From the IMG/VR virus record IMGVR_UViG_3300030106_005733, positions 1 to 21,686 of that record: 21,686 bases of DNA. One strand, 5' to 3'. A program made the position numbers and the translations under genes. Of the stretch, positions 14,103 to 18,436 are shown piece after piece. This stretch comes from a virus. Below the pieces are notes generated by a model. The model ran no database searches. It had not been told where the DNA came from and was given only the letters and a program-made list of their open reading frames with translations. Positions within the stretch are counted from its first letter, which is position 1, and each line of letters opens with the position of its first letter.

Positions 14103-14354
14103 CTGCGGTAAGTAATCCGGCTCAGCCGGAGTGGCAACGATCATCGCGCCGTTGACGTTCCAATCGAAGTCATAACCCATATGCACGTCACCCTCGACTT
14201 CGATCATCAGGTTGCGGCTGGTTAGCCGGAGCAGGGCTGCCTGCTGATGGAGGGTCATCCGACTGAAAAGATCAATAACTTCACTGGCCTCCAGCATCGG
14301 CTGGTAGCTTTGTGGCAGTCGCTCCTGCGATTGTTTTTTGAAGAAGTTGATCAA
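14076..14354 (-). CDS. small unknown protein, coupled to RHH gene
   Basis: A 92-aa protein read from a TTG that overlaps the upstream TGA (TTGA); no ATG is available until residue 20. The N-terminus has a basic FFKKQSQER stretch, then LFSRMTLHQQAALLRLTSRN (residues about 30-49), helical. The C-terminal part is acidic and Pro/Tyr-containing. I recognise no domain. It is transcribed with the RHH regulator and ends within the 3' end of the large virion gene on the other strand. Alternative start at the internal ATG of residue 20 would give 73 aa. Confidence 0.5.
   Translation of the reverse strand: MINFFKKQSQERLPQSYQPMLEASEVIDLFSRMTLHQQAALLRLTSRNLMIEVEGDVHMGYDFDWNVNGAMIVATPAEPDYLPQLTETSDPT
14116..14130. 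other. short perfect hairpin at convergent gene junction
   Basis: TCCGGC-TCA-GCCGGA, 6-bp GC-rich stem with a 3-nt loop, starting 14 nt after the plus-strand stop codon at 14102. No T-run follows on either strand, so it is not a standard intrinsic terminator, but it lies where a convergent terminator is expected. Confidence 0.35.
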
Positions 14355-14542
14355 TGGTAGTCTTCTCTGAATAACTTGCGGTGCTCTTGGTCGATCATGC
14401 GTTTGAGTTGGGCGATCAAAGTGCGGCCCTCGTGATTGCAGATATCACGCAGCATCTCATAGGTATCTGTGTCGATCGCGAGCGACTTGCGCGCAGGCTT
14501 GTTAGCGTGCGTCTGATCGTCTATTTCTGCCGTTTCATCCAT
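14351..14542 (-). CDS. ribbon-helix-helix (CopG/Arc-like) DNA-binding regulator
   Basis: A 63-aa protein. After a charged N-terminus comes the RHH pattern: strand KSLAID (residues about 19-24), helix TDTYEMLRDICNHEG, then helix TLIAQLKRMIDQEH. This is the size and layout of CopG/Arc-type regulators, which bind DNA as dimers and usually repress their own promoter. The ATG is at 14542 with AAGGG about 9 nt upstream. A minus-strand promoter (-35 TTGTAC, 17 bp, -10 TAGAAT) lies just upstream, and two 10-bp direct repeats sit inside its spacer, fitting autoregulation. Divergent from the oxygenase gene, so it may control that too. Confidence 0.6.
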   Translation of the reverse strand: MDETAEIDDQTHANKPARKSLAIDTDTYEMLRDICNHEGRTLIAQLKRMIDQEHRKLFREDYH

Positions 14543-14568: not shown

Positions 14569-14607
14569 ATTCTACAAGATTGTATAAGATTGTACAATGT
14601 ACGAGAT
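14569..14607. promoter_or_regulatory. divergent promoter/operator with 10-bp direct repeats
   Basis: On the minus strand, TTGTAC (14597-14592), a 17-bp spacer and TAGAAT (14574-14569) make a sigma70-like promoter for the RHH gene. AAGATTGTA occurs at 14576-14584 and again at 14586-14594, a 10-bp repeat (one DNA turn), followed by the palindrome GTACA-A-TGTAC (14592-14602). The plus-strand element TATAAG (14583-14588) could serve as a -10 for the oxygenase gene, but its ATG at 14597 is then almost leaderless. The layout fits binding of an RHH dimer array. Confidence 0.45.
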
Positions 14608-15310
14608 AAAAAACTATATGTTATCAATGCAGTCGCATTGGTTTATAAACCAACCTCTCTATAAGGCTGTCCAGGAAACTGTTCCGATCATCGCGGAGTA
14701 TCGCACTAAGGAGGGTGTGAACCGTATGCCGCGCACCCCAGCACAGCAGCTGTGCAAAAAAATTTTTCCTGATATCTACCGGGTGCCGCTCTTTCGTCGT
14801 CAGTTTTGCAAGATGCTGGTGGAGGAGATCAAGCACATGGAAAGGGAGATCGTGTTCCAGGTGAACGAGGATGAGGACGAGCTGCGACAGATCCCCGAGA
14901 TCGTTCTGCGCGATCACGTCCCGGAGCTGTACCGTAATATGTGGTTCGTCGTTCAGAACGTGTTGAACCCAATTTTTTACAGCCTGTATCAGCGCGACTG
15001 TCACGACGTCGCCTCGATCCAGATCGCGAACTACAACCCCAAAGACAAACAAAAAGGCGCCTGGCACCATGATGAAAGCGCCGACATCAGTGTCGTTGTC
15101 CCTTTGAACACCGATGGGTACAAGGGTGGCGGGACTGAGTTCCACAACCATGGCGTGCTGAACCCGCTGCCCAGCGGACACGCGCTGATCTTCCCTAGCT
15201 TCACCAATCTGCACCGTGGCCTGGCGGTCGAAAGCGGTGATCGATACCTCCTGGTCTTCTGGCTACATAACAAGAGACGCCTGGTCGAAAACTACGAAGA
15301 GCTTGTTTGA
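14597..15310 (+). CDS. 2-oxoglutarate/Fe(II)-dependent oxygenase (prolyl/lysyl hydroxylase type)
   Basis: A 237-aa protein. The C-terminal domain carries the full signature: H157-x-D159 in WHHDESADISVVVPLN, GYKGGGTEF, H206 in NLHRG, and the 2-oxoglutarate-binding R216, exactly 10 residues after H206. HHDES...VPLN...GGGTEF is typical of procollagen-lysyl and prolyl hydroxylase-like enzymes, which hydroxylate proteins or nucleobases and need Fe(II), O2 and 2-oxoglutarate. Phage members are frequent; substrates are usually unknown. The N-terminal 130 residues are helical and of unknown role. Start: ATG at 14597 lacks a ribosome site; 14618 and 14627 are alternatives. Soluble, no signal peptide. 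Confidence 0.78.
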   Translation: MYEIKNYMLSMQSHWFINQPLYKAVQETVPIIAEYRTKEGVNRMPRTPAQQLCKKIFPDIYRVPLFRRQFCKMLVEEIKHMEREIVFQVNEDEDELRQIPEIVLRDHVPELYRNMWFVVQNVLNPIFYSLYQRDCHDVASIQIANYNPKDKQKGAWHHDESADISVVVPLNTDGYKGGGTEFHNHGVLNPLPSGHALIFPSFTNLHRGLAVESGDRYLLVFWLHNKRRLVENYEELV

Positions 15311-15315
15311 GCGAA

Positions 15316-15333
15316 AAATAATTCAAATTATTT
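15316..15333. other. perfect AT-rich inverted repeat upstream of promoter P1
   Basis: AAATAATT-CA-AATTATTT, 8-bp arms with a 2-nt centre, 5 nt after the oxygenase stop and 12 nt upstream of the -35 of promoter P1. It may be an AT-rich operator or UP-like element; as a terminator it would be weak. Confidence 0.4.
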
Positions 15334-15344
15334 GTATAAAAGTG

Positions 15345-15373
15345 TAGACATCGACACGGTAATATGCCATAAT
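15345..15373 (+). promoter_or_regulatory. promoter P1 (repeated early-type promoter)
   Basis: -35 TAGACA (15345-15350), 17-bp spacer, -10 CATAAT (15368-15373), followed by AGGAGAAGTG-ATG. The spacer holds CGACACGG, shared with P2 and P3, and the preceding TTGTATAAAAGTG is shared with P2. The hexamers and spacing match sigma70. Confidence 0.7.
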
Positions 15374-15396
15374 TACTTCGTAATTGAGGAGAAGTG

Positions 15397-15594
15397 ATGA
15401 TGCTAATACTGAAGATCAACGAAATGACCCGAAACGACATGGTGAAGATTGCCGAGGCATCTCCCGCCGAAATGACCGCTGAGATGGCAGAGTTCTTGGC
15501 GGAGCTGGTCAAAAAAGGCAAGTACGCCAAACCCACCGGTGACGAGTTTGACGTGTTCGATGAGCTGTTCGATGCGATGGAGGAAGCCGCTTAA
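15397..15594 (+). CDS. small unknown early-type protein
   Basis: A 65-aa acidic protein. It begins with a short hydrophobic start (MMLILKINEM) followed by a helical, Met/Ala/Glu-rich body (AEASPAEMTAEMAEFLAELV) and an acidic C-terminus. No motif recognised. AGGAG lies 5 nt before the ATG at 15397 (8 nt before the second ATG at 15400); a GTG at 15394 is possible but less well spaced. First gene after promoter P1. Confidence 0.6.
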   Translation: MMLILKINEMTRNDMVKIAEASPAEMTAEMAEFLAELVKKGKYAKPTGDEFDVFDELFDAMEEAA

Positions 15595-15606
15595 TCCAAC
15601 TGACGA

Positions 15607-15655
15607 GACCAGGTGGTGCCTGGTCGAAACCCCTACGGGGGTCTTGGATAACCAA
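15607..15655 (+). other. three consecutive hairpins between two small genes
   Basis: GACCAGG-TGGTG-CCTGGTC (15607-15625), ACCCC-TACG-GGGGT region (15629-15642) and TTGG-ATAA-CCAA (15644-15655). They fill most of the 74-nt gap before the next ribosome site. None is followed by a T-run, so a simple terminator is unlikely; RNA regulation or processing is possible. Confidence 0.45.
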
Positions 15656-15668
15656 ATGGAGAAGTGAT

Positions 15669-15830
15669 ATGAACTATTTGCAAGAGCAATACATCGAGTC
15701 GTTACATTCTGCGCTCGATGGTTGTTACCGAGACCTCGATTATTACGAGAGCCTCGGCCACCAGAGTAGGATCGATGAGGTCGAGCGGGTGATCGCTTCT
15801 CTCAAAAAACAGATCGATGAGGCCGCATAA
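15669..15830 (+). CDS. 53-aa small helical protein
   Basis: ATG at 15669 is preceded by GGAGAAGTGAT, the same ribosome-site cassette as the neighbouring genes. Translation gives 53 aa, strongly helical, rich in Glu/Asp/Leu/Tyr (ESLHSALDGCYRDLDYYESL), ending EAA. It is too short for usual gene calling, but has a good ribosome site and ends in a GC hairpin around its stop codon. No function recognised. Confidence 0.6.
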   Translation: MNYLQEQYIESLHSALDGCYRDLDYYESLGHQSRIDEVERVIASLKKQIDEAA

Positions 15831-15836
15831 GCGGCC
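15821..15836 (+). terminator. GC-rich hairpin over the stop codon
   Basis: GGCCGC-ATAA-GCGGCC with the TAA stop of the 53-aa gene in the loop, then ATTTCTCC. T-content is low, so it may be a partial terminator or RNA stabiliser. A similar hairpin ends the LPD29-like gene at 18111. Confidence 0.4.
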
Positions 15837-15875
15837 ATTTCTCCTGGAAAAAGTGCAAATAATTGTATAAAAGTG

Positions 15876-15904
15876 TAGACAACGACACGGGATTATGAGA
15901 CAAT
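15876..15904 (+). promoter_or_regulatory. promoter P2 (repeated early-type promoter)
   Basis: -35 TAGACA (15876-15881), 17-bp spacer starting ACGACACGG, -10 GACAAT (15899-15904). The upstream ATTGTATAAAAGTG is shared with P1. Read as one site, GTGTAGACAACGACAC has GTGT/ACAC ends. It leads into the PP-loop ATPase gene with AGGAG before its ATG. Confidence 0.7.
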
Positions 15905-15928
15905 ACTCTTGTTGTTGAGGAGAATGTG

Positions 15929-16735
15929 ATGAAAATTTTGTCTTTCGGTGGTGGTGTTGACTCTAGTGCGATCTTGACGATGCACTTGATGGAGAAGGAT
16001 CTCGGGATCGAGGAGGTCATTTTCGCCGACACAGGAGCCGAGTCCAAGAAGACGTACGAGAACGTCGAGTTTTTCAAAGGCTTGTGTGCCGATGCTGGCT
16101 TGCCGTTCACGATCGTCGCCAAAGATGGTGAGAACATTACCGAGTGGGTCACTAGGTTGGGAATCGTTCCGGTGATGCCTGGCGGGAGCCACGTCTGTTC
16201 TAAGAAGTACAAGGGTGACGTGATCCAGAAGTGGATCGACACCAAGTACCCCGACGAAGAGATCACCTACTTGATCGGGATCGAGTTGGACGAGGGCCAC
16301 AGAACCGAGAGGTTCACCAAGCCCAAGGGCGACAAGAACACTTACGAGTACCCCTTGGTCGAGATGGGTATGACCAGGCAAGACTGCGTTGACTTGTTGG
16401 CCAAGTACGGAGTCGAGGTCGCCAAGTCTAGCTGTGTCTTCTGCCCCTTCATGAGCCCCAAGGAGATCAAGGACATCAGGAACGATCCAGAGGCTTGGGA
16501 GACAATCAAGCTTGTCGAGAAGAACTTCAGCGAGGCATCTCCCAGAAAACACCAGGCTTGGATCGATGCAGGCAAGCCGTTGAACAAGGGCGGCAAATGC
16601 AACAAGGGACACTGGAGAAAAGACTCCTGGGCTGAGGGCGCCAGGTTGTTCACCAAGAAACACAACGGCAAGAAGATGACCGTCCAGGAATGGGAAGCGG
16701 CAATCGATGCCGGAGAGTTAGACCAAGTAGCTTAA
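15929..16735 (+). CDS. PP-loop ATPase (PAPS reductase / DndC-like family)
   Basis: A 268-aa protein with a PP-loop SFGGGVDSS (residues 5-13), the ATP-pyrophosphatase signature that activates a substrate by adenylation. Next come FADTGAESKKTYENVEFF (32-49), HVCSKKYK (88-95, with C90), RTERF, then SSCVFCPF (167-174, C169 and C172). C90 plus the CxxC fits a metal or Fe-S site, as in phage PAPS-reductase-like and DndC-like proteins; the true substrate is unknown. ATG at 15929 is placed 6 nt after AGGAG. It follows promoter P2 and starts a four-gene run sharing unusual leucine codon use. No other dnd gene is seen. Confidence 0.72.
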   Translation: MKILSFGGGVDSSAILTMHLMEKDLGIEEVIFADTGAESKKTYENVEFFKGLCADAGLPFTIVAKDGENITEWVTRLGIVPVMPGGSHVCSKKYKGDVIQKWIDTKYPDEEITYLIGIELDEGHRTERFTKPKGDKNTYEYPLVEMGMTRQDCVDLLAKYGVEVAKSSCVFCPFMSPKEIKDIRNDPEAWETIKLVEKNFSEASPRKHQAWIDAGKPLNKGGKCNKGHWRKDSWAEGARLFTKKHNGKKMTVQEWEAAIDAGELDQVA

Positions 16736-16750
16736 ACAAGGAGAAGTGAT

Positions 16751-17074
16751 ATGGGAATTTTAGTCGACATCTACAGGAACGGACGCGACTGCACCAATGG
16801 TGGTGAGTCATCTTTCGCGAAGGGTTTTTGTGTGATGAACGCCGAGGGGCCTTTCGAACCGTCCGACAGATATCCAGCTGCGCAGTTGGTGGTTGCAATG
16901 CCGATGGGTGGGAGAAAGATATTGAGATTGATCCCCGAATCTGTGAGAGACAGGTGGACGATGTTTGGCGGTAACTACGCAGGAACCTCTGATGGTAGGT
17001 TTGGCGCGCTTTGCGAAGAGTTACTTGGCTTTTATTTCTACGGCGCGGTTGCGATTCACGACAGGGTGGAATGA
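16751..17074 (+). CDS. unknown protein in PP-loop/hydrolase cassette
   Basis: A 107-aa protein of unknown function. AAGGAGAAGTGAT-ATG places the start firmly. It contains NGRDCTNGGESSF (residues about 10-22), then FCVMNAEGPFEPSDRYPAAQ, an LVVAMPMGGRK strand and a C-terminal LLGFYFYGAVAIHD helix. Probably alpha/beta and soluble; no known motif. The stop overlaps the next ATG (ATGA), so it is translationally coupled to the HD hydrolase and may act with it. Leucine codons: no CTG. Confidence 0.72.
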   Translation: MGILVDIYRNGRDCTNGGESSFAKGFCVMNAEGPFEPSDRYPAAQLVVAMPMGGRKILRLIPESVRDRWTMFGGNYAGTSDGRFGALCEELLGFYFYGAVAIHDRVE

Positions 17075-17532
17075 TGAAAAATGCCAAAGACTTGATTAGG
17101 GCGATCGACTTCGCAATGACCTATCACGAGGGCCAGGTCGACAAGGGTGGGGCGCCGTATGTGCTCCACCCGATCCGAGTGATGATTGCAGTACATAAAT
17201 TGAATCCTGGTTTGCCGATCGAGGGTTTGATCGCTGCGGTGCTTCACGATGTACTCGAGGATACCGACGCTACGATCGGCGACATCGAGGTCTTGTTCGG
17301 CGAGGAGGTGGCGAACACGATCGCCTTGTTGACCAAGATACCGTACGAGCCAAACGACTTGTATTACGACCGATTGAAGGAGTACGACACAGCTGCCTGG
17401 ATCAAGTTGGCCGATTTGCAGGACAACTTGGATGTAACCAGGTTGACCAGCTTCACCGAGAAGGATGCAGCTAGGGTTGCCAGGTACAAAGTGCGAGAGC
17501 GAGAGTTGCTCGAGCATTTGGGCGAGGCATAA
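17071..17532 (+). CDS. HD-domain (p)ppGpp hydrolase, MESH1/SpoT-like
   Basis: A 153-aa single-domain protein with the HD signature of SpoT/MESH1 hydrolases. H19 begins HEGQVDKGGAPYVLHP (19-34), with H33; then AAVLHDVLEDT (55-65), with H59-D60 and E63-D64; FGEEVANTIALLTK (76-89); and IKLADLQDN (111-119), with D115. No synthetase domain follows, so it is a small alarmone hydrolase, predicted to remove the 3' pyrophosphate of (p)ppGpp with Mn(II); MESH1 relatives also act on NADPH. Start ATG at 17071 overlaps the previous stop; the upstream in-frame extension to 17011 lies inside the previous gene. Likely counters host stringent response, by inference. Confidence 0.82.
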   Translation: MMKNAKDLIRAIDFAMTYHEGQVDKGGAPYVLHPIRVMIAVHKLNPGLPIEGLIAAVLHDVLEDTDATIGDIEVLFGEEVANTIALLTKIPYEPNDLYYDRLKEYDTAAWIKLADLQDNLDVTRLTSFTEKDAARVARYKVRERELLEHLGEA

Positions 17533-17541
17533 GAAGCTCGC
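17522..17541 (+). terminator. hairpin around stop of hydrolase gene
   Basis: GCGAG-loop-CTCGC with the TAA stop of the hydrolase in its 10-nt loop, and only short T stretches after it. It separates this gene from promoter P3. Weak terminator or RNA end-structure. Confidence 0.3.
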
Positions 17542-17580
17542 TCGTTATGTCAAATTGGTATATAAAAAACTACAAAAAAG

Positions 17581-17609
17581 TAGACAACGACACGGTAATT
17601 TGAGACAAT
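17581..17609 (+). promoter_or_regulatory. promoter P3 (repeated early-type promoter)
   Basis: -35 TAGACA (17581-17586), 17-bp spacer ACGACACGGTAATTTGA, -10 GACAAT (17604-17609). Same hexamers, spacer length and CGACACGG as P1 and P2, but the upstream GTGT half is AAGT here. Confidence 0.7.
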
Positions 17610-17619
17610 ATCTTTGTCG

Positions 17620-17631
17620 GGGGATGACCCC
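17620..17631 (+). other. 5' leader hairpin before LPD29-like gene
   Basis: GGGG-ATGA-CCCC stem-loop in the leader, 6 nt before the GGAG ribosome site. It could tune translation or mRNA stability. Confidence 0.4.
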
Positions 17632-17648
17632 ATTAACTAGGAGAAGTG

Positions 17649-18119
17649 ATGATGAAGACAGAAGCAGCGAAGTGTGCAGCGGTGATCAGAAAGTATATGA
17701 AGGCCAAGGGTGTCAAAGCCTCTGTGACTTCTAAAAACTACAGCATGGGCGACAGTGTGAACGTCAAGATCAAAGAGATCATCGATCCCAAGGTCTTGAA
17801 CGAGATCAACGACGACTTGGCCATGTATCAGTACGGCAAATTCGACGGGATGCAAGACCTGTACGAAAACACAAACGTCATGGACGAGATTCCACAGACG
17901 AAATACTTGTTCATTGAGTACGATTACAAGGTCGCCGATGTTTTCACTGAGACCTTGGTCGAGATCTTGAAGGACAAGATCAATTATGTCGGCCCCAATC
18001 CCGAGTACGAATACCAACAAATGGCCAGGGGCATCTTGTACGGCAGAGAGCAGTTCATGACTTTCGGCGAAGCTTGCGCCGCGATCATTGAGTATTGCAA
18101 CAAAAACGAGGCCGCGTAA
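17649..18119 (+). CDS. LPD29-like protein (large polyvalent-protein-associated domain)
   Basis: A 156-aa protein. The N-terminal KCAAVIRKYMKAKGVKASVT then SKNYSMGDSVNVKI (residues about 7-40) fits the LPD29 layout ('A..IRK.LKA..p..kFSVrS..YSgGdsi.V'), and FDGMQDLYENTN follows at about 74-85. LPD29 is known mainly from mobile elements and phages, and no activity is firmly assigned. Residues 86-156 are helical. TAGGAGAAGTG precedes the ATG. Shares the CTG-poor leucine codon use of the preceding three genes. Its stop sits in a hairpin with the loop GTAA. Confidence 0.68.
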   Translation: MMKTEAAKCAAVIRKYMKAKGVKASVTSKNYSMGDSVNVKIKEIIDPKVLNEINDDLAMYQYGKFDGMQDLYENTNVMDEIPQTKYLFIEYDYKVADVFTETLVEILKDKINYVGPNPEYEYQQMARGILYGREQFMTFGEACAAIIEYCNKNEAA

Positions 18120-18124
18120 GCGGC
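18111..18124 (+). terminator. GC hairpin over stop codon of LPD29-like gene
   Basis: GCCGC-GTAA-GCGGC with the TAA stop in the loop, then TCTCCC, with no T-run. Compare 15821-15836. Confidence 0.35.
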
Positions 18125-18154
18125 TCTCCCAACCTCAAAAAAACAAGGAAAGTG

Positions 18155-18436
18155 ATGAGCGAAGAAATAAATTATCAAATGGGCGAAGAACAAATCCAAG
18201 CGATCGACGAGTTCCAGGACGGCATTCTCGATCTGATTCAAAACATGGGCGAGAGGGAGGTGCCACCGGAAGAGGTGATTTTCCAGGCGGTGCGAATCTT
18301 CTCTGAATTTGCTTTCGACATGGCGCCGTCTGAAGAGGTCGCTCGCGAGACGATCGACATCAGCGTCCGGGAGGCTTACAAGAATGTGTTCGAGGGTGGT
18401 CGTGAGCCATGTCCCAACTGCTCAGTCAAGCATTGA
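18155..18436 (+). CDS. small acidic protein with CPNC motif
   Basis: A 93-aa protein. AAGGAAAGTG precedes the ATG at 18155; the frame extends 20 codons further upstream, but those overlap the previous gene. The body is acidic and helical (QIQAIDEFQDGILDLIQNMG, residues about 13-32) with a C-terminal REPCPNCSVKH that gives a CPNC pair, possibly part of a zinc site but lacking two ligands. No function recognised. Leucine codons here include CTG and CTC, unlike the upstream cassette. Confidence 0.68.
   Translation: MSEEINYQMGEEQIQAIDEFQDGILDLIQNMGEREVPPEEVIFQAVRIFSEFAFDMAPSEEVARETIDISVREAYKNVFEGGREPCPNCSVKH

Follow-up and report, generated by a model that had tools for sequence, protein, structure and literature searches.

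Why should one virus place the same promoter, down to a block of spacer bases, ahead of three different sets of genes, and what reads that block? The question is raised by the promoters P1, P2 and P3 in the window, which covers a virus record of 21,686 bases from end to end; the record probably represents a fragment of a genome, and its DNA matches no named phage. The first-pass annotation had read the three as TAGACA, 17 spacer bases and CATAAT (P1) or GACAAT (P2 and P3), with a fixed CGACACGG inside the spacer, and both the positions (Table 1) and the block are confirmed here; in each promoter a TG precedes the -10, one base apart from it. The motif TAGACA-N-CGACACGG-N5-TG-N-NANNNT is matched exactly by P1, P2 and P3 and nowhere else in the record, and the 15-mer TAGACANCGACACGG has three matches there at up to two mismatches, all on one strand, with none for a reversed-pattern control. 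A plain sigma70 scan was dropped as a detector, having returned six matches in this record against 6.3 expected in shuffles.

The TTGTATAAAAGTG that had been noticed upstream of P1 and P2 is indeed common to them and is lacking at P3. The upstream regions of P1 and P2 match the UP-element consensus well, P1 agreeing at 12 of its 14 specified positions and P2 at 11; P3 agrees at 8. A perfect AT palindrome, AAATAATTCAAATTATTT (15316-15333), overlaps the UP-like region of P1. The sharing of ribosome sites goes further than first described, with six starts in 15388-18160 preceded by GGAGAAGTGAT or a close variant. P1 and P2 had also been said to contain an imperfect palindrome with GTGT and ACAC ends; the two four-base ends are present and nothing beyond them, and as a conserved operator the palindrome fails, the left GTGT arm occurring at 25 of the 77 non-redundant motif sites known from uncultured podovirus-like contigs.

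Table 1. Promoters, genes and leader hairpin at the variable locus of the window
Feature	Position	Strand	Details
RHH protein gene	14351..14542	-	conserved beside locus; possible regulator (candidate)
2OG-Fe(II) oxygenase-like gene	14597..15310	+	left edge of variable locus in relatives
P1	15325..15373	+	AT-rich UP-like region 15325-15344; TAGACA 15345-15350; CGACACGG 15352-15359; TG 15365-15366; CATAAT 15368-15373
P1 first gene, 65 aa	15397..15594	+	no function assigned
P1 second gene, 53 aa	15669..15830	+	no function assigned; same ribosome-site repeat
P2	15856..15904	+	UP-like region 15856-15875; TAGACA 15876-15881; block 15883-15890; TG 15896-15897; GACAAT 15899-15904
P2 first gene, PAPS-reductase/SspD-like	15929..16735	+	profile match
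P2 second gene, phrog_6045	16751..17074	+	no function assigned
P2 third gene, HD-domain phosphohydrolase	17074..17532	+	
P3	17561..17609	+	A-rich upstream; TAGACA 17581-17586; block 17588-17595; TG 17601-17602; GACAAT 17604-17609
P3 5'-leader hairpin GGGG-GAUGA-CCCC	17619..17631	+	hairpins of relatives covary
P3 first gene, 156 aa	17649..18119	+	weak LPD29 match
P3 second gene	18155..18436	+	no function assigned; ribosome-site variant GGAAAGTGATG

Scans of viral contigs gave 95 stretches with the exact pattern and 81 with a degenerate one, partly coding or chance matches; in many contigs the sites have the complete surroundings of a promoter, and several contigs bear two or three such sites. 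The motif thus recurs in relatives, so the objection that it might be absent from them falls. Matches in coding sequence that recur from contig to contig (for example the TCGGCG... and TTACGCTC... sets) have no AT-rich upstream region and were set aside, five matches in the species-genome collection of cellular sequences, without leader or upstream context, were taken as chance, and T4-like phages, which the consensus matched weakly by blastn (E about 2), were dropped. Blastn against named phages gave no convincing match. The larger motif-bearing contigs have many proteins in common, and two close relatives of the record (G009 and G015) each contain all three promoter cassettes of the window. 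By TerL and portal, the closest named relatives of the longest motif-bearing contig (G004, 55.5 kb) are HTVC023P, HTVC027P, 023Pt_psg01 and DSL-LC04, with identities to the first three of 57-61% for TerL and 47-54% for portal; the motif does not occur in the scanned parts of 023Pt_psg01 and DSL-LC04, the first 50 kb of each. The motif carriers are uncultured aquatic viruses of bacteria, distantly related to the Pelagibacter phages HTVC023P and HTVC027P.

How far the block is conserved was measured with a profile built from 35 non-redundant sites, which in 0.97 Mb found 95 sites above 14 bits, the maximum in shuffled sequence being 2.0. As the seed pattern had forced CGACACGG, the columns from the -35 to the block were removed for a leave-out search, and 78 sites scored above the top of 5.8 million shuffled positions; exact CGACACGG stands in register at 72 of these 78, and four of the remaining six are one change away. 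No other part of the motif is as conserved as the block. The earlier claims that P1, P2 and P3 form one promoter class and that a plain sigma70 promoter would not require their fixed CGACACGG are supported. Otherwise the sites look like sigma70-type promoters, with an AT-rich upstream region, a -35, the spacer block and an extended -10, and the sigma70-like -35, TG, -10 and UP-like tract recur across relatives. Two classes can be told apart: 51 of the 77 sites (class 1) have mostly TAGACA, TATACA or TGTACA and a spacer mostly of 17, and the other 26 (class 2) have TTG(C/T)ACA and a spacer mostly of 16. In one contig (G002, 663 on the minus strand and 732 on the plus strand) promoters of the two classes are arranged back to back with a separation of about 69 bp, and likewise in G012, G017 and G006. 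More distant phages that bear the RHH gene have GGACACGG at the same place and, in one set, another block, TTGCACATTTGTGCACATCTG; in four of these more distant phages (L288, L297, L299 and L305) a TTTGTGCACATCTG-like spacer block, at the same locus and with different genes behind it, is a second regulatory dialect.

At 93 of the 95 profile sites a start codon with a ribosome-site-like sequence is found 48-95 nt downstream, counted from the first base of the -35. The open reading frames behind the sites belong to 49 unrelated families, mostly of small proteins (median 93 aa). The sites are found mainly at a variable locus 3' of the 2OG-oxygenase gene, with the first cassette usually directly after the oxygenase, at a distance of about 800-890 bases from where RHH starts; a few stand ahead of genes of another kind, a helicase gene in G004 among them. 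In the window, the virion genes and the oxygenase-like gene lie to the left of P1, and P3 also leads further small genes. The first protein behind P2 (15929-16735) matches the model of SspD, of the Ssp phosphorothioation defence system, at an E-value of 7.8e-16, although the PAPS-reductase family is broad. Two gene ends in the window form GC hairpins with the stop TAA in the loop (GGCCGCATAAGCGGCC at 15821-15836 and GCCGCGTAAGCGGC at 18111-18124), and the protein encoded at 481-1179, amid virion genes, matches phrog_3704, whose label of ferredoxin looks doubtful.

In many cassettes the promoter is followed by a hairpin that begins about four bases into the presumed transcript; it is absent from P1, P2 and all short-leader cassettes. 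Across 12 gapless leaders all 72 cells of the six-pair stem are paired, two-sided changes are found at four of the six pairs, 18 cells are double-changed against 7.1 in shuffles, and pairing drops to 47-71% when the partner is shifted by one to three columns. This covariation is a stronger test than the RNA z-scores of single leaders, which are weak (median -0.7). The hairpin sits between promoter and ribosome site and is unlike a terminator because no T run follows its stem; a stem so close to the 5' end may protect the mRNA.

Homology between contigs breaks at the cassettes. In the pairs G013/G014 and G017/G006 promoter identity is 97% while neither flank exceeds the chance level, G038 and G046 are 98.9% identical until the start codon of the cassette gene, the divergence of G005 from G024 likewise begins at the start codon, and between G004 and G023 homology runs as far as the final base of CGACACGG. 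Of 351 homology ends in the interior of contigs, 37 lie within cassettes against 3.7 expected, about ten times as many, a count over related contigs that includes both partners of each pair and in which a conserved leader beside a variable gene attracts alignment ends even where no recombination has taken place. If the comparison is limited to 2 kb around cassettes, 10.6 of 233 homology ends, which are non-independent, are expected there.

The explanation that we consider probable is that P1, P2 and P3 are copies of a lineage-specific promoter cassette for accessory genes which doubles as a recombination junction. Such a cassette would run from an AT-rich UP-like region through a -35 (usually TNNACA) and the near-invariant CGACACGG to an extended -10, followed in many cases by a short 5'-leader hairpin, as at P3, and then by ribosome site and start codon. 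It would serve small accessory genes at the variable locus 3' of the oxygenase gene, and recombination between cassettes, presumably homologous, may exchange the genes behind them and leave the expression signals intact, an exchange made possible by the likeness of the cassettes. The cassettes would be active early, and the host would probably supply both the RNA polymerase that transcribes them and its main sigma factor. CGACACGG would be a protein contact, perhaps an unusual one of the polymerase. A T7-type RNA polymerase (PF00940) was found in none of 12 records, which may be incomplete, with a positive T7 control, and sigma region 4 in none of the 12 records searched, most contigs being fragments; with neither a phage polymerase nor a phage sigma factor found, the host polymerase is the likely reader. 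Against this explanation speak the fixed spacer block, which is unusual in a plain host promoter, and the lack of a hairpin at P1, P2 and every short-leader cassette.

The block could instead be the binding site of a phage activator which, in the manner of the T4 MotA box, aids or replaces the sigma contact at a poor -35, and the promoters would then be middle or activator-dependent ones. TTGACA is the -35 at only two of the 77 sites though often one change away, and the adjoining block is nearly invariant, with a fixed place beside the -35 and a distance to the -10 that is constant within a base or so, all of which fits such a site. Yet the UP-like tract, the TG and the -10 are all there, a full set that an activator-dependent promoter does not need, and no conserved activator came to light: the shared genes examined encode only two evident DNA-binding candidates, the RHH protein and a helix-turn-helix protein. 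The latter, with an HTH_3 match, was rejected as a regulator, being terminase-small-subunit-like by sequence and context. We doubt the common activator first proposed for the three promoters but regard it as possible; the palindromic operator proposed with it is not supported. It is likewise possible, and we suggest it tentatively, that CGACACGG is read by a factor which the phage carries, injected or made very early, and which recruits host polymerase to the accessory-gene promoters. It seems unlikely to us that the block serves as the operator of a repressor such as the RHH protein, by which the accessory genes would be silenced later as Aca proteins shut off early and anti-defence genes. 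The RHH protein is conserved beside the locus and its model has a CopG/Arc-like RHH fold (33 of 63 residues above pLDDT 90; the best structural matches of this predicted model, to MatP, CopG, Arc and antitoxins, all have weak E-values), and in the named-phage collection neither the protein nor the promoter motif was found. Its gene, however, has different repeats and no CGACACGG in its upstream region in the relatives inspected, its strand motif RKSLA is unchanged in more distant phages with other spacer blocks, and the site, which is asymmetric and has no conserved dyad symmetry, never changes its orientation relative to the promoter. As a reader of CGACACGG at P1 to P3, the part for which it had been put forward, the RHH protein appears a weak candidate. 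Between the RHH and oxygenase genes (14571-14610) lies TTGTATAAGATTGTACAATGTAC, two near-palindromic boxes 10 bp apart that are kept in close relatives and resemble TTGTATAAAAGTGTAGA upstream of P1 and P2; they are a possible autoregulatory site of the RHH protein.

Two further accounts are less likely still. Ordinary host promoters, alike through shared descent or duplication and with a block of no special function, would explain why close relatives carry the same trio of cassettes, but the proteins shared with G004 have a median identity of about 60% and the block is nevertheless near-invariant, both flanks are unrelated in several pairs, and the leave-out conservation test disfavours any account without selection, all of which makes this very improbable. 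The least credible reading is that the cassette is a site-specific recombination site for a serine recombinase with CGACACGG as its core. The break between G004 and G023 at the end of CGACACGG and the presence of a serine recombinase family in 13 of the 21 larger contigs agree with it; many other breaks, however, are located at the start codon or in other parts of the cassette and share no single fixed base, promoter elements are conserved throughout, and no inverted-repeat structure was seen.

The accessory-gene promoter cassette resembles the PeSLs, which in the work of Arbiol (2010) and Comeau (2014) are reportedly small intergenic elements made of a sigma70-like promoter and a stem-loop, tied to gene shuffling and densely placed in variable regions, where small accessory genes lie; their stem-loop is said to act as a terminator, the title of Comeau 2014 having 'promoter-terminator'. 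The sigma70-like promoter and the shuffling of genes with cassettes as junctions are found here too, whereas the leader hairpin, missing at P1 and P2, has no T run and lies between promoter and ribosome site, and a near-invariant spacer block is present. PeSLs are promoter-early stem-loops of T4-type phages (PMC4503421, PMC5348500), and the lineage here is podovirus-like, with TerL and portal of HTVC023P type, in place of a T4-like myovirus; on the terminator and on phage group the cassette is not a member. The early promoters of T4, with their layout of UP, -35, TGn and -10 (PMC2988021), likewise combine several polymerase contact elements with extra consensus positions and need no phage polymerase, but here an eight-base spacer block is the most conserved part, the -35 is rarely TTGACA and the early timing is presumed. 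In archaeal viruses a conserved early regulatory sequence has served to find anti-defence genes (PMC11065993); there too one conserved promoter leads many small unrelated genes and a neighbouring regulator was proposed as a later repressor (PMC11065993), whereas the promoter elements here are bacterial and the functions of the genes, where assigned, are predicted ones. The SAS and ESAS of Cluster K mycobacteriophages are short repeats at the translation starts of different gene families (PMC3203893), comparable to the repeat GGAGAAGTGAT before six starts here; the 13-bp GGGATAGGAGCCC that marks SAS at start codons is not that repeat, and ESAS are 17-bp inverted repeats (PMC3203893), unlike the asymmetric promoter motif. 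In the haloarchaeal virus HGTV-1 a PeSL-like TATA-like region and inverted repeat precede most ORFs of one genome arm, and gene shuffling was suggested there as well (PMC3950731), although that case concerns an archaeal promoter in one genome.

The motif marks where uncultured aquatic phages keep small genes open to exchange, many of which have no recognised relatives, and a search for the promoter can serve as bait to find such genes without homology, as for the archaeal anti-defence genes (PMC11065993). Promoter-led gene shuffling is also extended to a podovirus-like lineage, and a sharp question is raised as to the reader of a near-invariant eight-base block inside a promoter spacer. If that reader is a factor carried by the phage, the block would be a regulatory code common to the whole group, and any gene acquired behind a cassette would be expressed at once.
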